Assembly: GCA_016213865.1 (NCBI GenBank)
Contig: JACQZL010000372.1
Location: 1-29,449, forward strand
Reading direction: 5' to 3'
DNA length: 29,449 nt
Source of the DNA: Candidatus Rifleibacteriota bacterium
GTDB taxonomy: Bacteria > UBP17 > UBA6191 > JACPRK01
Part shown: positions 990-19,170 of the stretch, in pieces
Layout of the letters: each line of letters opens with the position of its first letter
How positions within the stretch are numbered: the first letter of the stretch is position 1
Program-made: the position numbers and the translations under genes
The notes under the pieces: model-generated
Told to the model about the DNA's origin: nothing
The model's input: the letters and a program-made list of their open reading frames with translations, nothing else
Database searches by the model: none

Positions 990-1031
990 GACCTCCAGGA
1001 AGGCCGCGCGCAGCCGGTCGAGCTCGCGCAG

Positions 1032-1463
1032 TTAGGAGTTGGCGGTCTTGAGGTCGGCCAGTAGCTGGTCCCGCTGCCGCAGCAACTCGTGGTGCGCCAC
1101 TGCCTGCCGAACGACCGCCTGCAGCTCTTGCGGAGCGCATGGCTTGTGGAGATAGCGATAGACGTGGCCCGTGTTGATGGCATCGATGGCCGCCTGGACG
1201 TCCGCGTAGCCGGTGAGCAGCAGCCGGACCATGTGCGGGTAGGCGTCTCCCAGCTCGGCCAGGAAGCTCGTGCCCGTCATGCCAGGCATGCGCTGGTCGG
1301 TGAGCAGCACGTGGACCTGGTGCTGACCCAGGATCTCGCGAGCCTCGGCGACGGTGTTGGCCGAAAGAACGAGGAACTCGCGCCGAAAGAGCCCGACTAG
1401 CGAGTTCGTGATCTCTTTCTCGTCATCGATGACGAGAAGCGTATGAAGGCGCGGGTTAGGCAC
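1032..1463 (-). CDS. Response regulator receiver domain protein, probably the N-terminal half of a split receiver-kinase
   Basis: A 143-residue CheY-like receiver. The acidic pair is D13/D14, the phospho-acceptor is D56 in LLTDQRMPG, the switch Thr is T84 (LLLTGYAD) and the conserved Lys is K107 (YRYLHKP). The ending is a charged helix (RQRDQLLADLKTANS) typical of the linker that joins a receiver to a histidine kinase. The stop TAA at 1032-1034 is in the same frame as the kinase helix that follows at once (LRELDRLRAA). It begins 24 bases after the NtrC-type gene, so the two are probably cotranscribed. As read, the protein has no output domain. The VYRYLHKP signature is common in receivers linked to kinases or HD-GYP domains. 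Confidence 0.85.
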   Translation of the reverse strand: MPNPRLHTLLVIDDEKEITNSLVGLFRREFLVLSANTVAEAREILGQHQVHVLLTDQRMPGMTGTSFLAELGDAYPHMVRLLLTGYADVQAAIDAINTGHVYRYLHKPCAPQELQAVVRQAVAHHELLRQRDQLLADLKTANS

Positions 1464-1487: not shown

Positions 1488-2896
<1,409 letters not shown>

Positions 2897-2897
<1 letters not shown>

Positions 2898-4605: not shown

Positions 4606-5010
4606 ATGAATCGAAGGTCCTTTGCTCGAGCCGGCTTGCTACTGCTGGTCGGCCTGCTCGTTTTAGTGACTGGCGTCACGGCCGAGCAGTACACAATGCG
4701 CGAGGGTGACACCCTCTGGGAGATCGCCAGGACACGCTACGGCGATCCATCCTTCTACCGGGATCTACAGCAGGTCAACAGCATTGGCGATCCCAGGCAG
4801 ATCCCAAACGGAACTGTAATCACGCTTCCATCCAAGGCTACCCTGCAGAAGCTGCGGCAGACCACCGATCCCGCCGAGAGGGCACGCATCCTCCGCAACG
4901 AAGGGGCCCAGACCAATCCGCAGCAGCCGACGGGGCCGACGCCCTTCAACCCGGTCCAGGGGCTGGGTGCCAGGCAGGAGGTTCCGAGGACAGGTGCCGG
5001 TGGGAACTGA
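4606..5010 (+). CDS. Secreted LysM domain protein
   Basis: A 134-residue exported protein. The signal peptide (residues 1-26) has an Arg-rich start, a long Leu/Val core and a probable cut after VTA. One LysM domain follows (about residues 28-77: YTMREGDTLWEIARTRYGD, then IPNGTVITLP), which binds peptidoglycan or other N-acetylglucosamine polymers. The rest is a short charged helix and a Gly/Pro/Asn-rich tail with no fold I recognise. The start is set by AGGAGG at 4592-4597. It precedes the GspK-like gene by 68 bases on the same strand, so it may anchor or guide the pseudopilus assembly at the cell wall. Small LysM proteins often accompany envelope-spanning machines; the link here is inferred from position. 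Confidence 0.9.
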   Translation: MNRRSFARAGLLLLVGLLVLVTGVTAEQYTMREGDTLWEIARTRYGDPSFYRDLQQVNSIGDPRQIPNGTVITLPSKATLQKLRQTTDPAERARILRNEGAQTNPQQPTGPTPFNPVQGLGARQEVPRTGAGGN

Positions 5011-5078: not shown

Positions 5079-7325
5079 GTGTTGAAAAGCCGTTCTGAAG
5101 CCGCCCGCCCGCCGGGCGCAATCCCGCCTTCCTCCGCGCGTTTCTTCCCTGATCGCCGGGGAATCGCCACCGTCGTCGTCTTCTTCGTCCTGCTCGTCCT
5201 GACGATCGGCGTCTTCAGTTATTTCTCGTTCATGCGGGGCAGGCGCTTGCTCCAGTACCGCCAGTTGTTCGGCGAGTTCGCTTACGAGCTGGCAAAGGCC
5301 GGGCTCGAGCTGACGCGCAGCGAGGTGGAGGCGTCGCTCGCCAATCCCGACTCCGACCTCTACAAGAAGCTCCTCTTGGCCCAGAACGAGGGCGCCTGGG
5401 GCGGTGGCGGCCGCACGCTCCTGGGGCGCATCAACCTGCTCTCGTCCAGCTACTCCCCGTTCATCGATCGGGTGGCTTCGAGCTTCGGCGGCCTTTCGAC
5501 CGTCGACAGGCTCGAGAGCGAGATCTACGCCCTGGTGGAGGATGTCGACGTCTTTCCGCCGCCGCCGTGGGCTCCAGCCCTGCCCGACACGAGGCAGAAA
5601 TCGGGCCGCATCTTCATTGAGGTCGAGAGCGTCTACAAGGCCGGCGCTCTGCTCGAGGGCGTCAGCAGGAGACTCGAGGGCTACTTCGAGTTCCGCGTCC
5701 TCTCGGGACTGCTTCCTCTACTCAACCACTTCACGCTGTACCTGGGAGACCCGTCGGCCGGCGGCAACTCCCCGGCCGATTTCAACGCGTCCGACACGGA
5801 CTTCCGCGGCATGCTCAGCAGCGGGGCCGGGCCGATCGTGCTCAACAACGGCGAGACCCTCGACGCCGGCGAGGCCCGCTCGACGATGAACGCGCGCTGG
5901 CTGGCCCGCCAGGGCTTTGTCTACCTCGGCCGCAAGAACGAGCTGCGCCTCAACCTGGCCTTCAGCCACGATGCCAAGGAGCACGCCCTGCAGGCCGGCG
6001 AGGACTTCCTCTTCTACCAGGAGTCGACCGACCCCGCGGTCAAGGAATCCCAGCGCGCCTACGCCGACGCGCGAGTCAACGCGAAGGTCAAGAGCCCCTT
6101 CTGGGAGGTCCGCTTCTGGGACCAGGGGGTGAACAAGCTCGAGGACAACGAGCTCAAGTTCTACAAGGCGGCCTACGACCCGGCCGAGTTGCCGGCCTTC
6201 AGGTCCAGCCTGCTCCACCTCTTCGGCGCGCCTCCGCGCGGCATCAGCCCGACACCCGTTTTCGGCCGCGTGGCGGCCGGCTTTCTGCGACTGTCGGCCG
6301 CCAACCCGAAGGGCGCGCCTGACGAGCCGACGTTCCAGACGCTCTTCACCTTGCTGCCCGGCAACGGCAACGTCGCCTCGTTCTTCAAGCAGTACCACGA
6401 CGAGGTGCCGGTTTCGGGCCCTGCCCTGGACGCCGCCGCTTGCCGGCAGAACCCGATGCTGCCCGGCAAGTTCCTCTTCGGCGACCCGGCCACGCTCGAC
6501 CTGAAGCCGGAGAGCCAGCCTCTCGTGCAACCCGCCGTCTATTCCGAGCTGATGTCGCGCTTGACCACACGCCCTTACAACCAGGGCCTCCTCTTTTTCA
6601 AGGCCGAGAACCACGACCCCGAGCCGACGGCCGCCAAGGTCGGGATCGGCATCCCGTCCGCCTACTTCGAGTCCGGAACCGAAGTCGAGACTCTCTGCAA
6701 GCTCCCCAAGGAGCTGATGCTGGAAGCGCCGGACCAGGGCAATTTCGACGACGTCGACCTGGAACCGATCCTCGGCCAGGTGAAGGACCCCTTCCCTCAC
6801 CGGGCCCGCGTGGCCCGCCAGTCCAGGGAGGCGACCCACTCGGTCCGCTTCCTCGAGAAGCAGGGATGGCTGAACAACGGCGTCCTCGATCTGGGCACCC
6901 TGCTGGTCTGGGAGCAGCCCGGGACCTTCACCCTGCCCGAGATCCGCAAGCTGAAGCGGGGCGGGATGATCGTCGCCGACTCCTTCGAGCTGCAGGGGAG
7001 CATCGAAGGCGAATCGGACACGCCGCCGCTGGTCCTCCTGGCCCGGACCGGCAACATCCGCATCGCGGAGCCCAAGCCGATCTTCGCGGTCCTGATCGCT
7101 CCCAAGGGTGTGCTGGAGGCCCCAAAGGGCCTCGACGTGAACGGCGCCATCCTCGCCCAGGCGATCGACTTCAAGAGCTTTCAGGGCCGGTCGCTGTCGC
7201 ACCTCCAGTACAACCCGCGGTTCAAGGTCGGACCGTGGTCGGCCACGCCGTCCGGTTCGGGCGGCACCAGTCCGAGTTGGTCCCTCGTGGTCGATCACTC
7301 GCGCGACTTCGTGGCGGTGCAGTGA
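5079..7325 (+). CDS. Large GspK/PilX-like pseudopilin, cassette 1
   Basis: A 748-residue envelope protein with a prepilin-like N-terminus: basic leader, probable cleavage at G28|I29 (RRG|IATVVVFF), then a 20-residue hydrophobic helix. There is no Glu at position +5, as in GspK and PilX minor pilins. It is more than twice the usual GspK length (about 320). The middle (residues 176-300: GRIFIEVESV, then LNHFTLYLGD, then GFVYLGRKNELRLNLAF) and the C-terminal beta-rich stretch (from MIVADSFELQG to LQYNPRFK) match in order the protein at 15830-18352, so the two look like distant paralogs. The GTG start at 5079 lies in what may be a decayed repeat and has no clear ribosome site. No in-frame ATG precedes the helix. 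Its TGA overlaps the next ATG (TGATG). Probable role: tip or platform of a pseudopilus. Confidence 0.8.
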   Translation: MLKSRSEAARPPGAIPPSSARFFPDRRGIATVVVFFVLLVLTIGVFSYFSFMRGRRLLQYRQLFGEFAYELAKAGLELTRSEVEASLANPDSDLYKKLLLAQNEGAWGGGGRTLLGRINLLSSSYSPFIDRVASSFGGLSTVDRLESEIYALVEDVDVFPPPPWAPALPDTRQKSGRIFIEVESVYKAGALLEGVSRRLEGYFEFRVLSGLLPLLNHFTLYLGDPSAGGNSPADFNASDTDFRGMLSSGAGPIVLNNGETLDAGEARSTMNARWLARQGFVYLGRKNELRLNLAFSHDAKEHALQAGEDFLFYQESTDPAVKESQRAYADARVNAKVKSPFWEVRFWDQGVNKLEDNELKFYKAAYDPAELPAFRSSLLHLFGAPPRGISPTPVFGRVAAGFLRLSAANPKGAPDEPTFQTLFTLLPGNGNVASFFKQYHDEVPVSGPALDAAACRQNPMLPGKFLFGDPATLDLKPESQPLVQPAVYSELMSRLTTRPYNQGLLFFKAENHDPEPTAAKVGIGIPSAYFESGTEVETLCKLPKELMLEAPDQGNFDDVDLEPILGQVKDPFPHRARVARQSREATHSVRFLEKQGWLNNGVLDLGTLLVWEQPGTFTLPEIRKLKRGGMIVADSFELQGSIEGESDTPPLVLLARTGNIRIAEPKPIFAVLIAPKGVLEAPKGLDVNGAILAQAIDFKSFQGRSLSHLQYNPRFKVGPWSATPSGSGGTSPSWSLVVDHSRDFVAVQ

Positions 7326-7756
7326 TGCGAAACCGCGTCGCCATAAGCCTGATCGAGATCGTCGTCGCCGTCGTCTTCCTGGCGATCGCCCTGATGCCGC
7401 TCCTGGGCCTGCTCATCGCGGGACACCAGGGGACGGCCATGACACTCCATCAGACCCAGGCTTTCCACCTGGCCGACGACATCGTGGAGGCCGTGGGCGC
7501 CTTGCCCTTCACCAAGGTCGACTCGGGCTTGCCGGCCGAGCTCGACCGCGTGATGCCGCTTCCGGCGCCCCCGGGCGGGCCGTCGCCTTACAAGCGCACG
7601 GTCGAGGTCCTCGCCACGGTCGAGACCCCCACGGCAGACGGCAAGGCCACGGTCCGGGTGAGGCCGGTCGTCGTCACGATCGTCTGGGATGGTGTCGGTG
7701 ACGAGGAGCGGCGCACCATCCGTCTGACCGCCCTGGCGACCGAGGTCCAGCGATGA
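7325..7756 (+). CDS. GspI/PilV-like minor pseudopilin, cassette 1
   Basis: A 143-residue type IV pilin-like protein. A six-residue leader precedes the cut site A6|I7, then ISLIEIVVAVVF with Glu at +5 and a hydrophobic helix to about residue 32. A short globular part rich in beta strands follows. Length and order (after a K-like gene and before a J-like gene) fit GspI. Ala replaces the usual Gly at -1, which prepilin peptidases tolerate poorly, though Ala is known in some pilins. The ATG at 7325-7327 overlaps the preceding TGA by one base and the TGA overlaps the next ATG (ATGA), so the three genes are translationally coupled. Confidence 0.85.
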   Translation: MRNRVAISLIEIVVAVVFLAIALMPLLGLLIAGHQGTAMTLHQTQAFHLADDIVEAVGALPFTKVDSGLPAELDRVMPLPAPPGGPSPYKRTVEVLATVETPTADGKATVRVRPVVVTIVWDGVGDEERRTIRLTALATEVQR

Positions 7757-8313
7757 GCCCCCGGCGGCGTGGCTTCACGCTCGTCGAGGCGCTGCTGGCC
7801 TTCGGCGTCGCGTTCGTCCTGATGGCCGTGCTCTACACGCTGCTCGTCTCGAGCCGTCGAGGCATGGTGCGCGGTGAGGGCAAGCTCGAGTACATCGGTG
7901 AGGCGAACCTCTTCTTCCAGTCGCTCAAGCGGGACGTGCAGGCGCTGCGCCAGAAGCCGTCGTGGAACCCGGCGACCAAGGAGCTGAAGCTGGACCTCTG
8001 GAAGGTCCGCCGCCAGCCCTACCTCCTGGTGAACGAGCAGGTCTCGTACAAGCTGGAGAACGGCACCATCCGCCGCCAGGTCGTTCCGTCACCGGGCAGC
8101 CCACCGCCTCCGCCCAACGACCCCGGAAACCGGGCCTTCGGGCTCGACAAGATCCAGTCGCTCCAGATCTTGCCGGGCAAGCTCCTCGACGCCGACTTCC
8201 TCGCGCTTTCGGTGGTCTTCCAGACGGTCCACGAGCCACAACCGACTCGGTTCACCAAGTCGCTCTTCTTCCGCAACCTGAGCCTCGACGCCACCTGGAA
8301 CCGGCTCGAGTAG
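7753..8313 (+). CDS. GspJ-like minor pseudopilin, cassette 1
   Basis: A 186-residue pseudopilin with a textbook N-terminus: basic leader MSPRRRG, cut G7|F8, FTLVEALLAFGVAF with Glu at +5. The globular part contains the SLKRDVQALRQ helix and paired beta segments (ELKLDLWKVRRQPYLLVNEQ, VSYKLENGTIRRQVV) common in PulJ/GspJ. It ends SLFFRNLSLDATWNRLE. It overlaps the GspI-like gene by four bases (ATGA) and is the last gene of the operon. The next gene is convergent. Together with the two genes before it, it would form the tip complex K-I-J of a type II secretion-like pseudopilus. Confidence 0.88.
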   Translation: MSPRRRGFTLVEALLAFGVAFVLMAVLYTLLVSSRRGMVRGEGKLEYIGEANLFFQSLKRDVQALRQKPSWNPATKELKLDLWKVRRQPYLLVNEQVSYKLENGTIRRQVVPSPGSPPPPPNDPGNRAFGLDKIQSLQILPGKLLDADFLALSVVFQTVHEPQPTRFTKSLFFRNLSLDATWNRLE

Positions 8314-8377
8314 CGCCTGGGGTGGTTGGGTGGCTGGATGGCTGGATGGCTGGGTGGTTGGGTGGCTGGCTAGGGAC
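8314..8377. repeat. G/T-rich tandem low-complexity spacer between convergent genes
   Basis: Bases 8322-8371 consist of imperfect 8-base units (TGGATGGC, TGGGTGGT, TGGGTGGC). The tract fills almost the whole gap between the GspJ-like gene and the convergent ychF. No hairpin terminator is visible. The strands are strongly skewed (G+T against A+C). Confidence 0.85.
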
Positions 8378-9457
8378 TCAGACGTTGAACCGGATGTTCA
8401 ACACGTCGCCGTCCTGGACGAGGTACTCCTTGCCCTCCAGCCGCAGGACACCTTCCTTCTTGGCTGCCGCGTAGGAGCCCTGAAGCCGCGCCAGGTCGTC
8501 GTACGTCACGACCTCCGCCCGGATGAAGCCCTTCTCCAGGTCGGAGTGGATCTTGCCCGCCGCCCGCTGGGCGTTGGTTCCGCGCCGGATCGTCCACGCC
8601 CGCACCTCGTCTTCTCCGACGGTGAAGAACGAGATGTAGTGGAGCATTTCGTAGCACGTCCGGATCAGCCGCGCGCGGGCCGGCTCCTTCATGCCCAGGT
8701 CCTCGAGGAAAGCGGTCCGCTCCTCTTCGGAGTCGAGCCCGGCGATGTCGGCCTCGATCCGCGCCGACAAGCGCAAGAACGGCTGCCCGGGCAGGGCGGC
8801 CTGGAAAGCGGACGTCGCAGAGTCCGCGGCATCGCGAAACTGCTCCTCGTCCAGGTTGAGGACCGTGACCATCGGCTTGGCGGTCACTGGAGCAAAACTG
8901 CGCATCAGCCCCTCTTCGTCGGGCTTGATCGCTAGCTCGGTCAGCGGCTGGCCGCCGTCCAGCGCAGCCTTCCGCTTCTCCAGCAAGTGCTGCTCGTGCT
9001 CCTCGCGCTTGTTGCCCTTTTTCACGCTGGCGGCGACCTTCTCCAGGCGTTGTTCGACCAGGATCAGATCGGAGAGGTGCAGCTCGTCCGTCAGCTTCCG
9101 GTAGTCGGAAACGGGGTCGACCGGACCATCGTGGTAGACGTTTTCGTCCCGAAAGCAACGTACCATCTGCAGCAGCCCGTCGACCGTCTTGACCTCCGAG
9201 AGCAGCTTGGCGGCCAGCGCGGACTTGCTGGCGCCCGACGAGATCGGCGCGAAGTCGACGAACTCGATGTCCGAGTAGATCGTCTTGCGCGGGTTGAACA
9301 GCTTCGACAGCACGTCGATCCGGGTGTCGGGGACCTTGATGACGCCGGTACGACCCTTGCCCGGATCGACCGCTGCACGTGAGGCCGCGGCCCCCTGCAG
9401 CAGGTCGAAGGTGGCGGACTTGCCGGATTGCGCCAGACCAATGATGCCGATTTTCAT
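8378..9457 (-). CDS. ychF: YchF/OLA1-type redox-regulated ATPase/GTPase
   Basis: A 359-residue cytoplasmic P-loop protein of the Obg/YchF group, a translation-associated ATPase that binds ribosomes. Full length agrees with the family (about 360). The P-loop is GLAQSGKS at residues 7-14. The C-terminal TGS domain is well conserved (AWTIRRGTNAQRAAGKIH, EKGFIRAEVVTYDDL, EGKEYLVQDGDVLNIRFNV). The start ATG at 9455-9457 has GAGGAG about 9 bases upstream; the frame remains open further upstream but that part lies over the DUF4340-like gene. GLxQSGKS, in place of the NVGKS of the E. coli type, is seen in a separate bacterial branch of the family. It is the last gene of the minus-strand array, 14 bases after the DUF4340-like gene. 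Confidence 0.95.
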   Translation of the reverse strand: MKIGIIGLAQSGKSATFDLLQGAAASRAAVDPGKGRTGVIKVPDTRIDVLSKLFNPRKTIYSDIEFVDFAPISSGASKSALAAKLLSEVKTVDGLLQMVRCFRDENVYHDGPVDPVSDYRKLTDELHLSDLILVEQRLEKVAASVKKGNKREEHEQHLLEKRKAALDGGQPLTELAIKPDEEGLMRSFAPVTAKPMVTVLNLDEEQFRDAADSATSAFQAALPGQPFLRLSARIEADIAGLDSEEERTAFLEDLGMKEPARARLIRTCYEMLHYISFFTVGEDEVRAWTIRRGTNAQRAAGKIHSDLEKGFIRAEVVTYDDLARLQGSYAAAKKEGVLRLEGKEYLVQDGDVLNIRFNV

Positions 9458-9471
9458 CCGCGGGAGACTCC

Positions 9472-10020
9472 TCAGAGATTGGGGCCGCAGCCGGCCAGCG
9501 CTTCGATCTCGCCGGCCAGGTCCCGGCGCAGAAGGCCCGCGCGGCCCAAGTCCGGCAAGCGGAAGTAGCGGCCGTCGCCCGCCGGATTCGAGGCGCCGAG
9601 GTCCAGATGATAGGTGCGCGAGGCGCGGATTGTCAAACGGACGGCCGGCTTCTCGAGCCCGAACTGGGCCCCCGACACTTCTGCAGCCGGCAGCGTCAGC
9701 ACGGGAGGACGCTGGCAGAGACGGTCCAGCACCCAGTCCAGGCGGGCCGTGACCTCGTCCGTGGTCGGCGCCGCGACGCCTCCGTAGGCGGGGCCCGCGC
9801 TCTCCGGCGAGACTGCCACGGTGGCCCACGCGACCCACCGGCCGGCCCTGCGCTCGAAGCCGATCCGCCGGGAGGCCGTGTCCAGGACCAGCGCTTGCAC
9901 CGCCGGCGCCGCCTCCGGCACCGTCCACTCCGCGGGCCCCGGGTCGACCCGGACCAACCAGGCCAGGACCAGCGCGAGCGCGGCGGCAGCGCTGAGGCCG
10001 AGCAGTCGCCCGCGGCTCAC
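9472..10020 (-). CDS. DUF4340-like envelope protein of the ABC-2/GldG module
   Basis: A 182-residue protein with one N-terminal membrane segment (about residues 6-23) and the rest outside. The body has repeated beta motifs (FERRAGRWVAW, FGLEKPAVRLTIR, YHLDLGASNPAGDGRYFRL) typical of DUF4340 proteins, which usually follow gldG-like genes. It is short for the family, with only one repeat. The GTG start overlaps the stop of the GldG-like gene by four bases (GTGA at 10017-10020), and ychF follows 14 bases later. Probable role: extracytoplasmic partner of the transporter. The function is not known. Confidence 0.75.
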   Translation of the reverse strand: MSRGRLLGLSAAAALALVLAWLVRVDPGPAEWTVPEAAPAVQALVLDTASRRIGFERRAGRWVAWATVAVSPESAGPAYGGVAAPTTDEVTARLDWVLDRLCQRPPVLTLPAAEVSGAQFGLEKPAVRLTIRASRTYHLDLGASNPAGDGRYFRLPDLGRAGLLRRDLAGEIEALAGCGPNL

Positions 10021-11459
10021 GGCTTACGGGCCTCCATCCAGAAATAGAGTGCCACCAGGAGCAGCATCGCCGGCACGCCCAAGAGGGTCACCGCGGCGAG
10101 CGCCTTGAGGTGTCGTTCGGTCAGGTACAGGCGCTGACCGGCGCGCCGCTCGGGGAACTCGCCCAGCATCGCCTCGCGTTGCGTGAGCCAGTTCACCAGG
10201 CCCAGAAGGAACTCCCGGTTCGCCGGAAAGCGCGCCAGCGTTGCGTTGGCCAGGAAGTCGCTATCGCCCACGACCGCCAGTCTCTTGCCGTCCGAACCGG
10301 CGCAGGCCGCCGCCACGACCAGGCTGCCCGCGGGTCCCTCCCGCCCGTCGGGCATCGTGGAAGTGCTGCCCGCCGACAGGATCACGAGAGGTTTCCAGGG
10401 CGTCCGGTCGCCGGCCTGGAACCCGAGTGCGGTGACGCCCGGAAAATGGGTGCTGGCGAGCCCCAGCGTCAGGGGATGATCCGGGTACTTCTCGACCAGG
10501 GCGGTCCCCGGGTCGCCCGGAAGGTGGCTGTCCAGGTCGTGGGCCTTGGCGCCTTCCCACAGCACTCCCCAGTCGGCGAGCAACCCCTCGAGGCGCGGGT
10601 GCACGGGGCCCGGCTCGACCAGTGCCAGGATGGAAGCGCCGGCGCGGTGCAGGCGCTGCAGGTTCTCGACTGCCGCAGGGCCCAGGTCCTGCCGCGCGAA
10701 CGGCAGCACCAGCAAGGCCGGAGCGGACGCGACCTGCATCAGGTCGATCGACCCGACGCGGTAGTTCTCGTGTTCCAGGACCGCCCGCGCCATCGTGCAG
10801 CCCAGCGGCCCCTTGTCGTCGACTTCGGGTTCGCCGCTCCCGGTAGCGAAGGCCACGAGCGGCTGGCGGGTCTTTAGCAGCGAGGCAATCGCCAGAGTCA
10901 CTTCGCGTTCCGACGGCCAGCGCACGATTCGCTCGCGGCCAGCCAGGCGGACCACGATGGCCCCGCGGGCCGTGCCGGGGAAGTTGCGCGCCAGCGAGGG
11001 TTTGAGATCGGGATCGAGGAAGTCGACCCGGATATGGCCCGACGCCTGCCGGTACTGGCCCAACAGGTCCCTGGCAAGGTGCCGTCCCGGCGAGTTGGCG
11101 CGAAAGATGACCGTGATCCGGAGCTCTTCCCCAAGCCCGCTCAGCACCTTGCGGGTCTGGTCTGACAGCGTGAAGACCTCCCGGGCCGTAAGGTCGAAGC
11201 GGACCCGGTGGCGCTCCAGCAAGATGTCCAACCCAGCCACGATGCAGAGACTGAGCCCCAGGTACAGACCGAGGAGGATGCCCGGTCCCAGCGAAGGGCG
11301 CAGTCGGTCCCGGGCGGCGAAGAGAGCACCGGCGGCGAGCCCGACCCCCGGCCAGATGAAGCCAGAGCCCGAGAGCCCGGCGGCCGCGGCCACGAGCCCC
11401 AGCAACGTGAGCCCCAGGCCGAGCAAGAGGACCAGTGGTGCCGCGAGCGTCGTTCTCAT
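10017..11459 (-). CDS. GldG-like ABC transporter auxiliary protein
   Basis: A 480-residue membrane protein. About three N-terminal hydrophobic segments lie within the first 80 residues, followed by an extracytoplasmic GldG/ABC_transp_aux region (FDLTAREVFTLSDQTRKVL, ITVIFRANSPG, IRVDFLDPDLKP) and a C-terminal membrane segment at about 455-474. The opening 'LT.....SLS..T..VL' followed by the 'F.D.D' pattern is the family hallmark. A conserved end (GDSDFLANA, then FLLGLVNWLT) precedes the last helix. It begins 9 bases after the permease gene. In gliding Bacteroidetes GldG acts with GldA and GldF; in other phyla the role is unknown. No ATPase gene is found in the window. Confidence 0.85.
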   Translation of the reverse strand: MRTTLAAPLVLLLGLGLTLLGLVAAAAGLSGSGFIWPGVGLAAGALFAARDRLRPSLGPGILLGLYLGLSLCIVAGLDILLERHRVRFDLTAREVFTLSDQTRKVLSGLGEELRITVIFRANSPGRHLARDLLGQYRQASGHIRVDFLDPDLKPSLARNFPGTARGAIVVRLAGRERIVRWPSEREVTLAIASLLKTRQPLVAFATGSGEPEVDDKGPLGCTMARAVLEHENYRVGSIDLMQVASAPALLVLPFARQDLGPAAVENLQRLHRAGASILALVEPGPVHPRLEGLLADWGVLWEGAKAHDLDSHLPGDPGTALVEKYPDHPLTLGLASTHFPGVTALGFQAGDRTPWKPLVILSAGSTSTMPDGREGPAGSLVVAAACAGSDGKRLAVVGDSDFLANATLARFPANREFLLGLVNWLTQREAMLGEFPERRAGQRLYLTERHLKALAAVTLLGVPAMLLLVALYFWMEARKP

Positions 11460-11468
11460 CGACCGGCC

Positions 11469-12185
11469 TCAGTCGCGCGCCGAGCGCGCCGCCTCCAGGG
11501 CTGCCGTCGCCATCGCCAGAAAGGCCGCGGCAAAAAGGACGAAGAACGCCACGTCGCCCGTGTCGACCAGTCCTCGAGTGAACAGCCCGAACCGCAGGTA
11601 GAAGCTGAAGCGATCCGGCAGGTTGCCCTCGTCGATGCCGAAGACCAGCCCCAGGCTGTGAACGAAATAGAACCCCAAGGCCAGCGCGAACCCCAGCAGC
11701 GCGGCCGCGGGGGTCGAGCGCGTCGCCGCGGCTGCGAAGGTGCCCATCGCCGCCACCGTGGCCCCCAGGAGAAAGCTGCCGCCGAGACCGGCGACGGCCG
11801 CCCCCGGATCGGCCTGTCCCACCACGGCGACCCAGAACGGGAACTGCACCGAAAGGACGGTCGCCAGGGCCAGGACGCCGACCGCGCCCAGGTACTTGGC
11901 CAGCACGAGGTGCCGCGGCTTCACGGCGGACGTCAGCAGGAGCTCCATCGTGCCTTCTCGCCACTCGGGACCGAAGGCGGCGGCCGTCAGCATCGGGGCC
12001 AGGATCAGCGCGAGCATCCCCAGATCGAAGTAGACGCCGGCCAGGTCGCTGGAGCTGGTCGTGCCGAGCACCACCAGGAAGAAGACGGCAGCCAAGAACT
12101 GGAACCCGGCGAGCAGCATCCAGGTTCCCGGGCTCCGCAGCATGCCCAGCAGTTCCTTGCGGCACAGAGCGCCGAACGGCGTCAT
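11469..12185 (-). CDS. ABC-2 type permease (GldF-like)
   Basis: A 238-residue inner-membrane permease with about six hydrophobic segments. The hallmark after the second segment is present at residues 74-86 (EWREGTMELLLTS), matching the 'E...GT.E.L...P' element of ABC-2 permeases that work with GldG-like proteins. The start is ATG at 12183-12185 (MTPFGALCRKELLGMLRSP), where the amphipathic lead helix of this family begins. The open frame upstream has no such features. It is the first gene of the permease-GldG-DUF4340 module. The matching ATP-binding subunit, normally directly upstream, is absent; its place is taken by the degenerate GspE-like gene 156 bases away. Confidence 0.88.
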   Translation of the reverse strand: MTPFGALCRKELLGMLRSPGTWMLLAGFQFLAAVFFLVVLGTTSSSDLAGVYFDLGMLALILAPMLTAAAFGPEWREGTMELLLTSAVKPRHLVLAKYLGAVGVLALATVLSVQFPFWVAVVGQADPGAAVAGLGGSFLLGATVAAMGTFAAAATRSTPAAALLGFALALGFYFVHSLGLVFGIDEGNLPDRFSFYLRFGLFTRGLVDTGDVAFFVLFAAAFLAMATAALEAARSARD

Positions 12186-12341
12186 CGGTGCCAGGATACC
12201 AGTGCAGCGGGTGCGGCGTGACGAGACGCGGTGCGCGGGTGTTGTACCGCTGCCAGCCGTGCTTCGACTCGGAGGCTCGCAAACTCGCCTCCGGCTCAGC
12301 ACGAACGGATCCCGGTCCTCTCGTGACCCGTCGTTGCGCCC

Positions 12342-14216
12342 TCACCGACTCGCCAGAGCGAGGTAATCGTCCAGGCCGATCGTTCCTGCCAGCATCGCCT
12401 TGCGTGCCGCAGGGAGCACCGGTACCAGCAGACCCTCTTCGAGCAAGTACTCCTTGAGCGGTCGCGAGTAGAGATCGACGCCGTCGCGATCCAGGCGCTC
12501 TCCGTCGAGCCGCAGGACCTCGTAAAAGTGGACGGGGCCGAACCGACCGGCGTTCTGACAGACGTCGCAGCCGCGGGCCCGGTAGGCGATCTTGCCGGCC
12601 AAGGCCTGAAAGCCCCGGGGCAGGCCGCCGGCGGCGATCGGGAACCCCTCGCGGCAGAACGGGCACAGGCGAGGCAGGCGGTAGGCCGTGACGAAGAGCC
12701 CATTGTGGACCGTCGCGCCCGCGGTCTGCTCGAGCGACCGGAGGGCTGAAAGTGGCGAGAACGCCGCCATCGTGAGGATCAGCGTTGCGTCGTGACGACT
12801 CATCTCGAGCAGGTAGGGCAGGTGCGCCGGAAGACGCTCGGTCCGCAGGGCGATCGCCTCCGAGTGCGCCGGCACGATCGCTTCGCGCTGCGAGGTCGAG
12901 AAGAGGATCTGCTGCGTCGGGTCACGCCCTCCGAGATCGTGGTGGAAGACCCCGGGGATCTCCGCCGCGCGGCCGTTCTCGAAGGCCAGGACCTTGCGGT
13001 CCTTGGCAGCCAGATCGGAGAGGATTGCGACCCATGCGGCCAGACTGTCCAGAGGCGTCGGCCCGGACAGGACCACGAGGCCGCACGGATCGGAGAGGAC
13101 GGACGTCATCAACTGGAGCGCCGCGAGCGGCAGGCCGGCCTCGTCCAGCGTCCAAACAGGTCGATCGGGCGCAATCAGGTTGAGGTCGAGCTGCGGGCTC
13201 GAGGGCGGGAAGAAGACGGTTTCGAACACGGCCGCGCCGCCGTCGTGGGGCCAGAGGAACCTCCGGCGCACCGGATGCATCAGCGTGGCCTCGTCCAGCC
13301 CCACGATGGTCGCCAGGACCCGGCGCAGCCGCGCTCGCCGCTCGGGCGGGATCTGCGTCCGATCGCTGCGTCCGCCCGGGCGGCGCGCAACGACCCAGAC
13401 CGGTCCCTCGCCCGGGGAGAAGGCGACGTTGCAGTAGCGCTCCCTGAGCGACGTCTGGAGCAGCCGGTGGACGAGCGGATCGACGGCCTGCGGGAACGGG
13501 ACCACAACCGGCTCGCCCGCGCACGCACTCACCACCGGAAGCTCGGAGGGGCCGTGAACGGCTGCAGCGGGCGGCGCGGCCGGCTGCAGGTGACAGCTCG
13601 CTTGCGGCGAGCCCGAGCCCCTGCCGGACGGCGTCGCGGGGCCGCAGGCAGTGGCCGGCACCTCTGGTCGCGCTCCGGGGCCGGGTGCCCCGCGCTCGGA
13701 GGCGGTCCCCGCGTCGCCTGTCGGCTCGAGGACTTCGACGTCGAGTTGCCGGGCGCAGAGCGAGGCCAGGTAGACCTCGCGCAACCCCTCGAAGCGCCCG
13801 CGCTCGATGAACCCGTGAGTTACGGTGAGGCCCGTCACGCTCCGAAGCAGTTCGGCCAGGTCCGGCTCGTCGAAGTCGCTGACGCCGATCGTCAGGGTCT
13901 CCTCGTCTCGGCCCAGAGGTACAAACCGATACGAGCGCACGAGAGCGGCCGGGATGTCCGCAAAGAGCTGCGGTCGGACGTTCTCGGGCTCGGGCTCCAG
14001 GTAGGGGCAATGGTGCTGGGCAGCCAGGGCGCGTGCCAGTTCGGTCTCGTCCACGAGCTGATACCGCAGCAGCAGCTCTCCCAGCCGCGGCCGCTCCGTT
14101 CGAGAGACGGCGAAGTCGGCCTGCTCCTTGAGCAAGCTGCGCAACTGCAACGTCGAGACCTTGCCGTCTCTGGCCAGGATCTCTCCCAGGCGCTCGGTCT
14201 TTCGTACGGCCGGCAT
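12342..14216 (-). CDS. GspE/PilB-like protein with lost ATPase motifs (pseudo-ATPase)
   Basis: A 624-residue cytoplasmic protein with the plan of a type II secretion/type IV pilus assembly ATPase. An N-terminal GSPII_E_N-type region (residues 8-150, with RLGELLLRYQLVDETELARA), a Pro/Ala/Gly-rich linker (165-235) and a C-terminal motor-like domain follow in order. The zinc tetracysteine of the family is kept (C518, C521, C550, C553: LCPFC, then GCDVC). The catalytic sites are not. The Walker A position reads GPTPLDSL (385-392) where GPTGSGKT is expected, with no Lys. The Asp-box position reads FENGRA, the Walker B region LLEMSRHD, and the His-box has no His. The frame is intact and a GGAGGA site precedes ATG 14214-14216, so it seems under selection as a non-hydrolysing homolog. 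It follows the second pseudopilin cassette by 88 bases. Confidence 0.85.
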   Translation of the reverse strand: MPAVRKTERLGEILARDGKVSTLQLRSLLKEQADFAVSRTERPRLGELLLRYQLVDETELARALAAQHHCPYLEPEPENVRPQLFADIPAALVRSYRFVPLGRDEETLTIGVSDFDEPDLAELLRSVTGLTVTHGFIERGRFEGLREVYLASLCARQLDVEVLEPTGDAGTASERGAPGPGARPEVPATACGPATPSGRGSGSPQASCHLQPAAPPAAAVHGPSELPVVSACAGEPVVVPFPQAVDPLVHRLLQTSLRERYCNVAFSPGEGPVWVVARRPGGRSDRTQIPPERRARLRRVLATIVGLDEATLMHPVRRRFLWPHDGGAAVFETVFFPPSSPQLDLNLIAPDRPVWTLDEAGLPLAALQLMTSVLSDPCGLVVLSGPTPLDSLAAWVAILSDLAAKDRKVLAFENGRAAEIPGVFHHDLGGRDPTQQILFSTSQREAIVPAHSEAIALRTERLPAHLPYLLEMSRHDATLILTMAAFSPLSALRSLEQTAGATVHNGLFVTAYRLPRLCPFCREGFPIAAGGLPRGFQALAGKIAYRARGCDVCQNAGRFGPVHFYEVLRLDGERLDRDGVDLYSRPLKEYLLEEGLLVPVLPAARKAMLAGTIGLDDYLALASR

Positions 14217-14304
14217 GACAGTCCTCCGGTGCGCTGGGCACCACCCAGATCATCGGCGCGCTGCCGGATCGCCCGAAGCAGGGGTGCCGTCTACCGACTA
14301 CCGG

Positions 14305-15006
14305 TCAGATCGACCCGCCGTCCTGAGGCACCTCGATGCGCAGCTCCATGTTGACCCGCCGTGGATAGACGGTCGTGGCCGTATGGACCACGTCGCGAGG
14401 ATCGATCTTGCTCGGGTCGGTCACGACGCCCTCCTCGGCTTCCATCTCTTCCTTCGACTTCTTGGGCTTGAGCTTGACGTCGAAATGATCGATCTGGACC
14501 ACGACCCGGTAGTACTGGAACAGGATGCGTTCGTTCTCGCTGGTCGCCGTGGCGTAGAAATTGAGCACCTGCGTCTTGCCGCCCAACCAGAGCCGTTCCT
14601 CGAGCGGACCGCCCTTGTCCCGGTTGAGCTTGCGGTAGATGATCTCCTTCTGGTCGGGGTTGTACTCGTACTGGCTGTAGTAGTACCGGTTGAGGTGCTC
14701 GGGCTCGAAGCGACGATCCTCGAGCGGAATCGTCAGCAGGCGGCCGTTCTGCTGGATCTCGACGAGGCCGACGGCGGCCTTCAACTCCTGGCGGATGCGC
14801 GCCGTCAGGATGCGGACCGATTCCTGCCCGTCGGCCCGCTTGCCCAGACCGATGGCGCGGATCGAGGTCGTACTGAAGATCTGCTGGAAGAGGATGAAGA
14901 CGATCGTGGTCAGCACCATGATGAAGAGCATCTCGATGAGCGTGATCGCCCGGCGCTGCCGGCGGCAACGCAACCCACCCAGCCCGCTCGTCTGTCTTGC
15001 TCTCAT
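14305..15006 (-). CDS. GspJ-like minor pseudopilin, cassette 2
   Basis: A 233-residue pseudopilin. From ATG 15004-15006 the leader is Arg-rich (RCRRQRRA) with a cut at A20|I21, then ITLIEMLFIMVLTTIVF with Glu at +5. Ala again replaces Gly at -1. The globular part includes a helix (SVRILTARIRQELKAAVG) and beta segments like GspJ, plus a charged loop (KPKKSKEEMEAEEGV). The frame is open upstream to 15282 but that part only translates the repeats at 15012-15213, so the internal ATG is preferred; its ribosome site is weak. It sits between the GspI-like gene (283-base gap) and the degenerate GspE-like gene. Confidence 0.82.
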   Translation of the reverse strand: MRARQTSGLGGLRCRRQRRAITLIEMLFIMVLTTIVFILFQQIFSTTSIRAIGLGKRADGQESVRILTARIRQELKAAVGLVEIQQNGRLLTIPLEDRRFEPEHLNRYYYSQYEYNPDQKEIIYRKLNRDKGGPLEERLWLGGKTQVLNFYATATSENERILFQYYRVVVQIDHFDVKLKPKKSKEEMEAEEGVVTDPSKIDPRDVVHTATTVYPRRVNMELRIEVPQDGGSI

Positions 15007-15011
15007 CGTCC

Positions 15012-15061
15012 GGCTGTCGACCTGTCCACTGCCGACTCTGGACTGTCGACTCTCGACTTCG
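15012..15061. repeat. Imperfect tandem repeat of 'ctgtcgact' type
   Basis: Five or so 8-10 base units, each a variant of CTGTCGAC or CTGCCGAC (for example CTGTCGAC at 15014, CTGTCCAC at 15022, ACTGTCGACT near 15042). It abuts the start codon of the GspJ-like gene. Confidence 0.65.
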
Positions 15062-15145
15062 TCTTGGGCGGCCCCGCGGAAAGGTGTCTCATTTGGGCAT
15101 CGACCACTCCGGTGTGGATTATCCGCACACTTCGCTCGCGAGGAG

Positions 15146-15213
15146 GTAGGGGCGGGGCTCGTCCCCGCCCGCTCTGGGCGCGCCTTGCGGGCGGGTACAA
15201 GCCCCGCCCCTAC
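15146..15213. repeat. G/C-rich palindromic intergenic element
   Basis: Perfect 14-bp inverted repeat GTAGGGGCGGGGCT at 15146-15159 and its complement at 15200-15213, with a 40-base interior that holds further GGGCGGG/CCCGCCC pairs (GTCCCCGCCC, then GCGGGCGGGT). It is a second REP-like family, unrelated in sequence to the one at 84-168 but of the same size and plan. Confidence 0.8.
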
Positions 15214-15289
15214 GTCGCGGACTGTGCGGCCAGTGAGGTTGGATTTGACCGGTGCCCTCATTTGTGATGATCTCGGTGGCACAAGACGG

Positions 15290-15793
15290 CTAGTCAGGCG
15301 GACCGTAGAACGTCACCAGCTTCAGTTCGCGCTTGTTCTGAGTCGACTTGTCTTTCCAGGCCACTCGCACGCGGACCATCTTCATGACCTTGGGAGGGAT
15401 GTCACCCGCGACCGTCACGTCTGCCAGGATGGTGAAACGCTCGTCGTATTTCTTCAGGTCGTCCCGCTGCGGGATCGGGTGCTTGGTGTAGATGTCCTGC
15501 AGCGTCATGTTCAGCTCTTCGTCCTTCCAGAAGAAGGCGTCGTAGGGCGCGCCGCGGATCACCTCGATCACGTCCGAGGCGTAGATGGTCGCCAGCGTCT
15601 CGTCGCCGCCCCAGTAGATGGCCCGGCTCGAGGTGACGATCCACGCGAAGATGGGGCCGAACATCAGCCCGATGATGACCAGCGTGACCAGGATCTCGAC
15701 AATCGTGAGCCCGGCGGACGCTCGGCCCGCGGATAGAGAGGTGCCCGGGCGCGTCCAGGCCCGCGTGGCACGGCTCGCGTCTGGCTGCATCAT
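15290..15793 (-). CDS. GspI/PilV-like minor pseudopilin, cassette 2
   Basis: A 167-residue pseudopilin with a long leader (28 residues) and cut G28|L29, then LTIVEILVTLVIIGLMFGP with Glu at +5. The globular part is about 115 residues and ends in beta strands (MKMVRVRVAWKDKS, RELKLVTFYGPPD), much like the I-like protein of cassette 1 (TVRVRPVVVTIVWDG). The start is one of two ATG codons in tandem at 15788-15793 with a poor ribosome site. It lies 36 bases after the large GspK-like gene. Confidence 0.85.
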   Translation of the reverse strand: MMQPDASRATRAWTRPGTSLSAGRASAGLTIVEILVTLVIIGLMFGPIFAWIVTSSRAIYWGGDETLATIYASDVIEVIRGAPYDAFFWKDEELNMTLQDIYTKHPIPQRDDLKKYDERFTILADVTVAGDIPPKVMKMVRVRVAWKDKSTQNKRELKLVTFYGPPD

Positions 15794-15829
15794 CGGGTTT
15801 GGCGGGTCGTCATCGCACGGGGCCCGGCG

Positions 15830-18352
15830 TCACTGCGTCGGGTCCAGGATCTTGTAGTCGCGCTTGATGGTGTACTCGTACTGCTTGATCTCGTTGGTGA
15901 TCGCCACGTAGTAGTAGTTGTCGCGATCGAGCTGCTGGGCCTTCGGGTCGATGTGGTAGCCGTAGTCGAACACGATCCGGCCGCCGTCGGGGATCTTCGA
16001 CAGGTCGAGGAAGTTGCAGCCCAGGCCGCCGAAGAGGTTGAGCTTGGTCCCCGCCGCGACGTTGACCGGGTAGATGTAGCTGTAGAGTTGAGCGTCGATC
16101 CGCTCGGACGTCTGCACCTCGATCCCTCCGAGCGCGACGATGGTCAGAAGGGCGTTCTTCTCGGGGTTGTCGGGTTTGTCGTACTCCTCGTGCTTGACCA
16201 TGAAACCCTTGAACACCACGCGCCCGAACGTGATGATGATGCACTTGCCCCGGTACTTGTTGTTGGCGAAGACCAGGTCCTCGGTGCCGGTGATGTAGAC
16301 CACGCCATGAAGGTCGAATAGCTTGTCCTTGGGGTTGTAGTACTTGCGATAGAACTGGTTGACCTTCGGATTGCGCGGGTCGATCAGGCTGGAGATGTAG
16401 TCCGTCGCCTTGCTGTAGAAGAGGAACGGGTTGAACTCGGCCAGGGGCTTATCGTACTCCTTGAACGGCGAGCACTGGGGCGCGAACTGGCGGTCCAGCT
16501 CGTTCTTGAGGAAGAAGAACCCCTTGCTGGCAAAGGTGTCCAGGTAGGAGCGGATGGGCGAGTCTTTCTCGGGGATGAGGAACTCGAGCAAGGCCAGGTT
16601 GTAGGGCGCGAAGATGGCCGCGGCCGGTATCTGGTTGAGGTACTCGGGCCCCAACCCGTAGGTTTGCTGGGCCAGGATCGTCGCGTTCAGCGTGATGTAG
16701 AACTTGGGCTTGCGAAGCTCCTCCGGGAGCTTCAGCCACTTTTCCTTCACGTCCTTGGTCCAGGCCGCTGGTAGGTCGTCGGCCTTGGCGATCGGGTCTT
16801 CGGGGTTCTTGCCCTCCATGAAGCCCTTGGGGAAGTAGGGCAACTGGAACTGGTTCGGGTTGAGGGTCAGCGTGTTCTTGACCTTGTCCAGCCAGCCCGT
16901 CTCCATGTAGTCCCGGACCATGAAGTAGGTCTGGACCACGTCGCCATAGACCAGCGTCGGGCTGATCCGGATGCGATAGTTGGAGTAGAGCTTCTCCATC
17001 AGGTCGGAGGTGATCTTCTTGATGCCAGCCCAGAGCTTGCCCCAGAACCCCTCGGCCTCGACGGCCTTGCCCTTCTCCTTCTCGACCACGTTGCCGAACA
17101 GCGCCAGTCCGGAGAGCGCAGGCGAGGGCCTGCGGCCTTCTTTCCACTCGCCGTCGGCCAGGGCCGAGAAGTAGGCGCTATAGCTGGCCACGGATCGGCC
17201 CCCCAGCGCGTCCTTGAGGGCCTTCTCGTTGTCGAACAGCTCGCGCCCGTGCCCCACGTACCGGAAGATCAGGTCGCCCTTGCCCGGGATGGCACTCGAA
17301 GTGACGCCCGTGTTGGCCGGCTCCGAGCTTGAACCGGGACCCGTCGTGAGGGACATCTCGTCGGTGCCGGCCGCGGCGGCCTCGAGCGCGGCCTCGTTGA
17401 ATTTCTTCTCCAGCACCTCCTTCAGGGCCTTGAGGGGGATCTGGACCTGCTGGGGAAGGAACTCCGACTCGGCCGAATGGAAGGTCTTCTGCAGAGCGCC
17501 GCTCGAACGGTCGCCGTTGGAGAGCGGCACGATCCCCTTGTTGATGAAGATGCGTCCGGGCGGCACCTTGCCGTTCCGAACCACCTCGTTTTCCATGTAG
17601 CTGGTGAACTCGGACTTCTTGAAGGTCTTTTGGCCCGTCCCGGCCCACCCGTTGTCCAGCACCAGCGACTTCAGTGGACTCGGGAAGTCCTTGTACTGGT
17701 AGCCGAAGACCGACTCCTTGGCGCCGTAGTAGTCCACGGACATGTTGTTGACGAACAACGTGCACTCGGACATCACCGGGATCGTCGTCCGCACCACTTT
17801 GAACGGACGAGCAACCGCCACGGTCTTCGCCAGTGGAGGTTTCTGGTCGTGCTCGTACTCCAGCGAGATCTCGATACGCAGACGGCCGTTCTTCTCGACC
17901 GGATCGGGCGGGTTCTTGAACCCGGGGATGTCGAAGGGCTCGATGTCCGTGATGAGGCCCTTGACCCCGAACTTCTCGTCCGGAATGCCGAACTCCTCGA
18001 CCGCGATCTTGCGCGCGTTGGTCGAGATCCTCTTCAGGTAGTCCTTGTCGATCTCGATCTCCTTGGCCCCCGACTGGCGCACCTGGTCGTAGATGCGGTT
18101 GCCGGCGCTGCGCGTGTTCAACTGCTGGACGATGTTGAAGAAGATCTCCTCGCTGGCGGCCTCGGCCAGCGTCGTGATCACCTCGGACTGGTACACGTAG
18201 ATCGACTGGTCGATCTCTCGCGTGCTCAGAAACATCAGCATCCCCGCCAGGATGCTGAGTGCCACCAGCAGCCCCATGGCGTAGTAGAGGACGATTCCGC
18301 GCCGGTTCGTGCCAGTCGTCACGCCATCAACTACGAAAGATCGGGGTCCCAT
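15830..18352 (-). CDS. Large GspK/PilX-like pseudopilin, cassette 2
   Basis: An 840-residue envelope protein with prepilin-like cut G19|I20 (RRG|IVLYYAMGLLVALSILAG). It lacks Glu at +5, as GspK/PilX proteins do. Residues 156-290 (GRLRIEISLEYEH, ECTLFVNNMSVDYYG, GRIFINKGIVPLSNGD) align in order with residues 176-300 of the protein at 5079-7325. A beta-rich C-terminal stretch (GVVYITGTEDLVF, IIITFGRVVFKGFMV, GGRIVFDYGYHID) parallels that protein's end and looks like the repetitive beta sheet region at the end of some PilX-type proteins. It is lower in G+C-type residues (more Lys, Tyr, Asn, Phe) than its neighbours. It starts one base after the lipoprotein stop. Probable role: tip or scaffold of the second pseudopilus. 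Confidence 0.82.
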   Translation of the reverse strand: MGPRSFVVDGVTTGTNRRGIVLYYAMGLLVALSILAGMLMFLSTREIDQSIYVYQSEVITTLAEAASEEIFFNIVQQLNTRSAGNRIYDQVRQSGAKEIEIDKDYLKRISTNARKIAVEEFGIPDEKFGVKGLITDIEPFDIPGFKNPPDPVEKNGRLRIEISLEYEHDQKPPLAKTVAVARPFKVVRTTIPVMSECTLFVNNMSVDYYGAKESVFGYQYKDFPSPLKSLVLDNGWAGTGQKTFKKSEFTSYMENEVVRNGKVPPGRIFINKGIVPLSNGDRSSGALQKTFHSAESEFLPQQVQIPLKALKEVLEKKFNEAALEAAAAGTDEMSLTTGPGSSSEPANTGVTSSAIPGKGDLIFRYVGHGRELFDNEKALKDALGGRSVASYSAYFSALADGEWKEGRRPSPALSGLALFGNVVEKEKGKAVEAEGFWGKLWAGIKKITSDLMEKLYSNYRIRISPTLVYGDVVQTYFMVRDYMETGWLDKVKNTLTLNPNQFQLPYFPKGFMEGKNPEDPIAKADDLPAAWTKDVKEKWLKLPEELRKPKFYITLNATILAQQTYGLGPEYLNQIPAAAIFAPYNLALLEFLIPEKDSPIRSYLDTFASKGFFFLKNELDRQFAPQCSPFKEYDKPLAEFNPFLFYSKATDYISSLIDPRNPKVNQFYRKYYNPKDKLFDLHGVVYITGTEDLVFANNKYRGKCIIITFGRVVFKGFMVKHEEYDKPDNPEKNALLTIVALGGIEVQTSERIDAQLYSYIYPVNVAAGTKLNLFGGLGCNFLDLSKIPDGGRIVFDYGYHIDPKAQQLDRDNYYYVAITNEIKQYEYTIKRDYKILDPTQ

Positions 18353-18353
18353 G

Positions 18354-19127
18354 TTACCGGTCGGCCGGCGGCGGCCCGTCCTCCAGGATGGCGAAGTAGT
18401 AGTCGAACTCGGTGTCGTGCTGGAGCACCAGGGGCTCTCCGTCCTGGCGGAGGCCGAAAACCGCAGCCTCGAGCGCCTGGTCGTCCGTCGAGAAGAAAAT
18501 CTTGCCCCCCGTCTCGGCCTCCAGCTCGAGGACCTTCCCGGCTTCGGAGCCTTGCAGCTTCTTCATGAGGACCTCGCTCAGTCGAGGCTCGGCGGAGGGC
18601 CCGCCGGCTCGCTGCTGATAGACGCTGGCAGCCGCTGCCTGGGCGGCCTTGCGCAACTCTCCTTGTTCCCGGGCGGCCTCGGACTTGAGGTAGTCGGCCT
18701 GCAGTTGCTGAAAGCGCTTCATGGTCTCGGCGGCCTTGTCCTTCTCGCCGGCGCCGGCATAGGACTGTGCCAGGAGGAAGCAGACCTCCATCCGAACGGT
18801 CGGGTCCAGGTTTGGGCGGCCCAAGAGCGCCTCGGCCATCGGGACGATGTAGGCGTAGTTCTTGGCCTCCCAGAGCTCTCGGCACTCGGCCAGCTTCTGA
18901 CGGTCGCCGAGCGGATCACCCCCGCCCTGGGGGCCCGTCGTGGGCTTGCCCGTGCCCTCTGACGAGGCCGGCTGGGCTGGCGAGTCGGAAGGCTCGGGCA
19001 AGGCGGGTTCGTCCCCCCCGGCCTCCTCGCCGGACGGGGCATCGGAGCCGCAGCATCCGGGTACACTCAGGCCAAAGGCCGCAATCGCCGCCAGCACCAA
19101 GAGCCAGTATGCCGCGCACCGCTTCAT
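18354..19127 (-). CDS. Lipoprotein with helical repeat (TPR-like) region
   Basis: A 257-residue lipoprotein. The signal peptide ends in a lipobox-like VPGC with lipidated C25. An acidic Gly/Ser/Pro/Glu-rich tether (residues 26-75) follows, then helices with TPR-like spacing (LAECRELWEAKNYAYIVPMA, EVCFLLAQSYAGAGEKDKAA) and a long Gln/Ala-rich helix. The last 60 residues (FSTDDQALEAAVFGLRQD) are beta/helix mixed and unknown. ATG 19125-19127 is preferred over an in-frame TTG four codons earlier. First gene of cassette 2, one base before the GspK-like gene, so it probably belongs to the same assembly, for example as an outer-membrane pilotin-like or scaffold protein. The role is inferred from order only. 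Confidence 0.8.
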   Translation of the reverse strand: MKRCAAYWLLVLAAIAAFGLSVPGCCGSDAPSGEEAGGDEPALPEPSDSPAQPASSEGTGKPTTGPQGGGDPLGDRQKLAECRELWEAKNYAYIVPMAEALLGRPNLDPTVRMEVCFLLAQSYAGAGEKDKAAETMKRFQQLQADYLKSEAAREQGELRKAAQAAAASVYQQRAGGPSAEPRLSEVLMKKLQGSEAGKVLELEAETGGKIFFSTDDQALEAAVFGLRQDGEPLVLQHDTEFDYYFAILEDGPPPADR

Positions 19128-19170
19128 CGCAAACGTCAAGCCTCGGGTCGAGTCGCGCTCAGCTTACTAT

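Follow-up and report, generated by a model that had tools for sequence, protein, structure and literature searches.

We analyzed a 29,449-base stretch of a Candidatus Rifleibacteriota contig (JACQZL010000372.1; the whole stretch is called the window below) that carries two cassettes of prepilin-type genes on opposite strands, each consisting of a gene for a giant GspK-like pseudopilin (K) followed by genes for two small minor pseudopilins (I and J). K1-I1-J1 occupies 5079-8313 of the plus strand and K2-I2-J2 occupies 18352-14305 of the minus strand, in agreement with an initial annotation of this DNA. That annotation had also placed a small envelope protein ahead of each K gene, and the order was indeed LysM protein (ending at 5010), K1, I1 and J1 in cassette 1 and lipoprotein, K2, I2 and J2 in cassette 2. 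Between the cassettes, all on the minus strand, lie genes for a GTPase, a protein of 182 amino acids (aa), a GldG-like protein, a GldF-like permease and a protein derived from GspE/PilB. The G+C content of the window was 62-72% (1,500-base steps), no tRNA genes were found in its 29,449 bases, and the one organism-named relative of each K protein came from Candidatus Wallbacteria. The features are collected in Table 1.

K1 (748 residues) and K2 (840 residues) were found to carry class III-type leaders (RRG/IATVVVFF and RRG/IVLYYAMG, respectively, the slash marking the cut) with Val and Tyr at position +5, so the description of both proteins as lacking Glu+5 was correct. Glu+5 was present in I1, J1, I2 and J2, and the residue before the cut in I1 and J2 was Ala, not Gly. 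Gene order, size and leader are the basis for the labels I and J; searches of PDB sequences with the I and J profiles returned mainly pilin N-termini and chance names. The initial annotation had further described K1 and K2 as paralogs that share sequence blocks in the same order. In a 77-row alignment built without reference to these blocks, three block pairs fell in identical columns (298, 353 and 477). Two C-terminal blocks were also in register between K1 and K2, an SPTxVxG motif was common to both, off register, and the two proteins were identical at 100 of 598 aligned residues. Direct comparison of the K1 and K2 profiles aligned only the N-terminal ~190 residues, with a probability of 88. 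We also used a K2-free profile, made from K1, six relatives and five paralogs from G001, a 6.2-Mb Wallbacteria assembly whose K2 relative is 78% identical to K2 of the window. This profile detected the window K2 at an E-value of 1.4e-16, while the best of 3,633 reversed decoy frames reached 0.87. The match had two parts in the same order, an N-terminal domain (E 8e-10) and a weaker C-terminal one (E 0.005); the region between them was hardly matched. All 20 of 20 K2-family proteins, the window protein included, were detected by the same profile (E 9e-24 to 1.4e-6); the N-terminal end was matched in all 20 and the C-terminal segment, mostly weakly, in 15, again in the same order. Judged from these sequence comparisons, K1 and K2 are homologous, and their designation as GspK-like paralogs stands.

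The K proteins fell outside the families that we searched. A Pfam scan of K1, K2 and eight giant paralogs from G001 recognised no family, no NCBIfam family claimed K1 or K2, and among 19 K members scanned with NCBIfam nine families matched one member each (best E 0.14). Nothing was found when PDB sequences were searched with the K profiles A3 and A1, and a protein homologue search with A3, the joint K profile that contains K1, K2 and paralogs, returned the K1 family again and nothing further. Within the phylum, A3 matched 39 of 39 genomes, with at least 4 to at least 28 matches each (pieces, not genes). Later counts used stop-to-stop frames, and matches confined to the N-terminus were set aside because the true GspK of G001 also matches there; this protein (contig C5, locus L046, 457-aa frame) lies beside GspE and GspF and matches PF21687/T2SSK at 2.2e-17. 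G001 had 33 matching frames of at least 500 codons, 26 of which matched beyond the N-terminal helix; the corresponding figures for genome G018 were 42 and 35. G001 also had 67 N_methyl matches, at least 12 near-full-length GspE/PilB-type matches and 7 secretin matches; G018 had 8 secretin matches, and the number across the 39 genomes ranged from 2 to 10. Giant K-I-J cassettes thus appear to form a large family, with dozens in the two genomes counted and profile matches throughout the phylum. We found no paper on this expansion in the collection of open-access papers that was searched. The initial annotation had envisaged two specialised tips used by one machine. The long frames of the two genomes do not fit the number two, and the GspE/PilB and secretin matches of G001 do not fit a single core machine; specialised tips are still plausible, as a broad phylum-wide family instead of a pair.

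Gene order was surveyed in G001 around 24 giant K genes, each encoding 450 aa or more (fetched stretches only, ~0.94 Mb including overlaps). A convincing Glu5 pilin gene adjoined 23 of the 24 as counted by eye, the Glu5 pattern itself also catching spurious frames. For only one of the 24 was a listed match to GspE, GspF or a secretin found at a distance of 12 kb or less (contig C49, GspF at 9.5 kb), partial GspE-type matches not being used. Twenty further regions, picked for K matches in G018 and G011, gave a similar order: both I-like and J-like genes followed K in 12, one such gene in five and none that we recognised in three, and GspE plus GspF occurred in a single region, which was a K2-type locus. 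I proteins usually had ~140-180 aa and J proteins ~150-230 aa, and the K proteins had a prepilin-type leader without Glu+5 and stood upstream of I and J. The earlier statement that no core genes lie nearby was therefore right for most cassettes and overlooked the GspE/PilB-derived gene in the window itself. Among the giant K genes seen outside the K2 type, only that of locus L161 (G030, contig C126) was immediately preceded, in the same orientation, by a full-length GspE. A lipoprotein-K pairing was rejected as a general rule, since a strict lipobox occurred in 7 of the 21 loci from the K2 clade and, elsewhere, in 5 of 50, with a pattern that misses some lipoproteins accepted by eye.

A tree was built from 75 of the 84 matching frames and the window pair (572 columns); it had many long branches, and support was measured only by the Shimodaira-Hasegawa-like approximate likelihood ratio test. 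K2 fell in a clade of 24 rows (support 97), and K1 grouped, far away, only with rows of G001, G031 and G032 (support 100). The K2 clade held one row per genome, partly because the best K2 match of each genome had been fetched; genomes with several tree rows had only one of them in this clade. K2 is the most widely kept cassette, and K1 appears to be an additional tip restricted to one lineage. GspE/PilB and GspF/PilC lay ~2 kb upstream of the K2 relative, in divergent orientation, in 14 of the 24 clade rows. The other 53 rows included one GspE (at L161) and one GspF (at G001 C49, see above). Fisher's test of 14/24 vs 1/53 gave a p-value of 3e-8, a figure from unequal flanks and from 14 loci that are kin and may reflect one event. 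K2 relatives without the platform neighbour were those of the window, G001, G017, G019, G033, G034 and G036, as well as the best K2 matches of G037-G039, which had no full match and were left out of the tree; in G018, G023 and G035 less than 4 kb of contig was available upstream of K2.

The content of the linked operon was assessed in the 14 loci by comparison with the genes of one of them, L144. A short protein (a cupin in L144), a tetratricopeptide repeat (TPR) protein, GspE and GspF were present in 14 of 14, a G-like gene in 13, and H, I, J, a small K-like gene and PilM in 11. The operon ended after G in L145 and L165 and was cut by the contig in L147. The small K of L144 had 135 aa, no Glu5 and no Pfam match. 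Secretins of G001 matched nothing in the five loci that were extended. K2 thus often adjoins a platform that already carries a small K-I-J set. The initial annotation had named the pairing of each cassette with its own complete core elsewhere as evidence against its proposal; for K2 relatives this applies in part, given the neighbouring operon in 14 of 24 rows, the separate small set in that operon and the lack of a secretin in the extended loci, and for K1 no such partner was seen. In L180 (6045-9160, genome G013), downstream of a K2-linked platform, a 693-aa frame with a K-like leader was followed by I- and J-like genes and then by a run of ~1000-aa proteins starting with a membrane segment.

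Both blocks of the window recurred in G001. The K1 block comprised the same two two-component genes, LysM-K1-I1-J1, the convergent GTPase, GldG, the permease and the GspE/PilB-derived gene, and part of it (LysM-K1-I1-J1, GTPase and GldG) was also present on a 7.6-kb contig of G031; the LysM protein adjoined K1 in G001 and G031 and, more weakly, in G032. The K2 block comprised the CARDB protein, the M36 peptidase, the TPR protein and lipoprotein-K2-I2-J2. In G001 the two blocks lie on different contigs, C80 and C134, and neither K gene is closer than 15 kb to a contig end, so in the one genome where this could be tested their adjacency is not a conserved unit. Together with the distant branches in the tree, this led us to discard the view of K1 and K2 as a special pair.

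The GspE/PilB-derived protein (pseudo-GspE) lacked Walker A and retained the MshEN domain and a C-terminal CxxC...CxxC. Its G001 relative (53% identity, beside K1; L033 1789-3618, plus strand) also lacked Walker A, which a pattern search found in 11 of 12 G001 GspE loci, the exception being L013. In both the window and G001 the gene stands beside K1, accompanied by the GldF/GldG-like genes and the GTPase. The protein may be a cyclic di-GMP-sensing pseudo-ATPase. Separately, two G001 frames of 1543 and 1786 codons (C28:6309-10217 and C94:30894-34973) each had three successive T2SSE-type matches and look like three ATPase domains fused in one protein.

Table 1. Genes and features of the window, with positions, strands and remarks.
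Feature	Position	Strand	Remarks
Histidine kinase and response regulator genes, upstream of cassette 1	294..1463	-	Relatives beside K1 in G001, 60% and 69% identity
Next two genes after the two-component genes	1488-4246		G001 match at domain level only
Small LysM protein, directly upstream of K1	4606..5010	+	Longer open frame from 4273; LysM match (3.6e-4) narrowly missed the cut-off
K1, 748-aa giant GspK/ComZ-like pseudopilin	5079..7325	+	Class III-type leader, no Glu+5
I1, 143-aa minor pseudopilin	7325..7756	+	Glu+5; PilV N-terminus 1.3e-4, below cut-off
J1, 186-aa minor pseudopilin	7753..8313	+	Glu+5; N_methyl 3.5e-5
GTPase, convergent with cassette 1	8378..9457	-	Start set by G001 comparison; same place in G001 and G031
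182-aa protein, GldG-like protein, GldF-like ABC permease	9472..12302	-	NCBIfam matches below cut-off
Pseudo-GspE/PilB	12342..14216	-	No Walker A; MshEN domain and C-terminal CxxC...CxxC retained
J2, minor pseudopilin	14305..15006	-	Glu+5; open frame to 15282, probable start ATG 15006
I2, minor pseudopilin	15290..15793	-	Glu+5
K2, 840-aa giant pseudopilin	15830..18352	-	Member of the 24-row clade found across the phylum
Small lipoprotein, directly upstream of K2	18354..19139	-	Likewise in G001
TPR protein	19310..20965	+	Opposite strand to K2; same place in G001; start approximate
M36 (fungalysin) metallopeptidase, 2057 aa	20823..26996	-	PPC and CARDB domains; HEYGH motif present
Partial protein	27022-29448	-	Related to C-terminal region of the M36 protein and to G001 protein at same place

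The M36 metallopeptidase and its counterpart at this position in G001 were 43.5% identical over 1905 aa. The peptidase adjoins K2 in both Wallbacteria loci and is a candidate client or cargo of a K2 tip, the only hint at the different cargo that had been suggested for the two tips. The partial protein at the end of the window and the C-terminal region of the M36 protein appear to belong to a repeated, adhesin-like domain family.

Structure models of the K proteins were weak and of low confidence. They contained a pilin-like N-terminal domain and a C-terminal beta-solenoid, and those of K1 and K2 matched the same folds, which, with the sequence homology, speaks against the structural dissimilarity that the initial annotation had named as evidence against its proposal. 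The middle region of both models, mostly, and the end of the K1 model had a predicted local distance difference test score under 50. In K2, strands 814-818 and 826-832 come after the solenoid and the match to 7o5y spans 46-831 of the weak model, suggesting an insertion of the solenoid before the last pilin strand. Foldseek returned no match at E<=0.001 for the K2 model, and GspK was not named in either structure-alignment list (K1 and K2 models), which excludes nothing. The solenoid matched that of ComZ, tied with ice-binding proteins, and the ComZ match covered the solenoid only. ComZ of Thermus thermophilus (PDB 6QVI) is described as a large minor pilin that binds DNA and joins a GspK-like pilin domain to a beta-solenoid, the closest fold to the latter being that of an ice-binding protein; its neighbours are small minor pilins, and it is argued to fit only at the tip (PMC6561018). 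Modular pilins in general are described as widespread (PMC8179133). If the models are right, the K plan is that of ComZ, a proposed tip pilin, and a solenoid carried on a pilin-like domain favours a tip position for K.

We propose, with a probability of about 0.6, that the K-I-J cassettes form a set of exchangeable tips which a small number of type IV filament machines can carry. Each cassette would encode the complex at the tip of such a filament, be it a pseudopilus or a pilus. K would most likely be cleaved by prepilin peptidase and would form a priming complex with I and J, the small minor pseudopilins that seat it. K would be modular, consisting of a pilin-like domain at the N-terminus, a large middle that varies and a beta-solenoid at the C-terminus; it would be too bulky for another subunit to sit above it and would therefore stay at the tip, leaving the solenoid as the outward working part. 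Since cassettes outnumber machines, tips would share platforms or be used at different times, and different cassettes would probably cap the filaments of a few shared platforms and present different binding surfaces. As K2 relatives are often back to back with the platform operon, K2-I2-J2 would most likely be the giant alternative to the small K-I-J of that operon. More speculatively, and with odds somewhat short of even, the phylum may use a combinatorial library in which some 26-35 or more ComZ-like cassettes per genome serve a handful of machines, like interchangeable adhesins or receptors, with K2 as the ancestral tip tied to its own platform.

The neighbourhood of K2 could also be read as that of a dedicated exporter, each cassette capping a short pseudopilus of a type II secretion system that exports one exoprotein, such as the M36 metallopeptidase in the case of K2. 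The M36 protease (HEYGH being present in the window), a CARDB/Ig protein, the TPR protein and the lipoprotein adjoin K2 in both Wallbacteria loci, and the platform genes linked to K2 relatives follow an order resembling that from GspE to GspK. However, no M36 match at E<=1e-6 was found in 25 loci of K2 relatives from other genomes, the five extended loci yielded no linked secretin, and to our knowledge no type II secretion system works as one cassette per cargo; we consider such cargo-specific tips unlikely. Equally doubtful is that K is a surface or periplasmic protein whose prepilin-type leader serves only membrane anchoring and processing, as the leader might likewise do in other expanded prepilin-type families (DUF1559, Verru_Chthon cassettes). 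The orphan state of most cassettes seen, their high copy number and the best NCBIfam match of J1, a weak one to TIGR02599 (Verru_Chthon C), would agree with a protein outside the filament, whereas the recurrent K-I-J trio, the absence of Glu5 in K alone, the pilin-like N-terminal part and the linkage of K2 to the platform operon argue for a filament subunit. That the K proteins are competence tips, acting as DNA receptors like the DNA-binding, pilin-plus-solenoid ComZ, is very improbable, as it is difficult to see why one genome should need dozens of DNA receptors.

How tip minor pilins set the function of type IV filaments is an open question, and few tip sets per species have been studied so far. 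A repertoire of exchangeable tips, if real, would be an extreme case of tip diversification, none of the ten giant modules scanned being recognised by Pfam, and would make the idea of one machine serving many tips testable. The beta-solenoid parts would be a pool of putative new binding modules, and the K2 cassette with its linked platform offers a defined starting point.

Several known systems resemble these cassettes. The Verru_Chthon cassette (TIGR02598, TIGR02599, TIGR02600) is likewise repeated and combines one huge protein with small prepilin-type proteins, and I1 and J1 match its proteins B and C weakly, at the N-terminus. Membership was nevertheless rejected: TIGR02600 (protein A) was above cut-off in none of the 39 genomes, 12 of which had weak N-terminal matches only, and it gave no match among the 19 K members at E<=10. 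GspK-GspI-GspJ of type II secretion has the same K-I-J order, a K without Glu+5 and a proposed tip role. The giant K proteins, presumably two to three times the length of GspK, may, going by the weak models, have a solenoid in place of its alpha-domain, and T2SSK (PF21687/PF03934) had no match at E<=1 in K1, K2 and eight G001 giants, while the L046 control was matched. ComZ, like K, stands beside small minor pilins, and its pilin domain plus solenoid may also be the plan of K; it shows no sequence similarity (no ComZ at E<=10 with profiles A3 and A1 against PDB sequences), and the K proteins are longer and number dozens per genome. Finally, Myxococcus xanthus is described as having 12 minor pilins and 3 PilY1 proteins for one machine, with several minor-pilin clusters of which clusters 1 and 3 each suffice alone (PMC7541494). 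There the clusters number three and PilY1 is a separate tip protein, whereas here the cassettes number dozens and the large part is fused to K; the sharing of one machine by the M. xanthus clusters makes an exchange of tips plausible.
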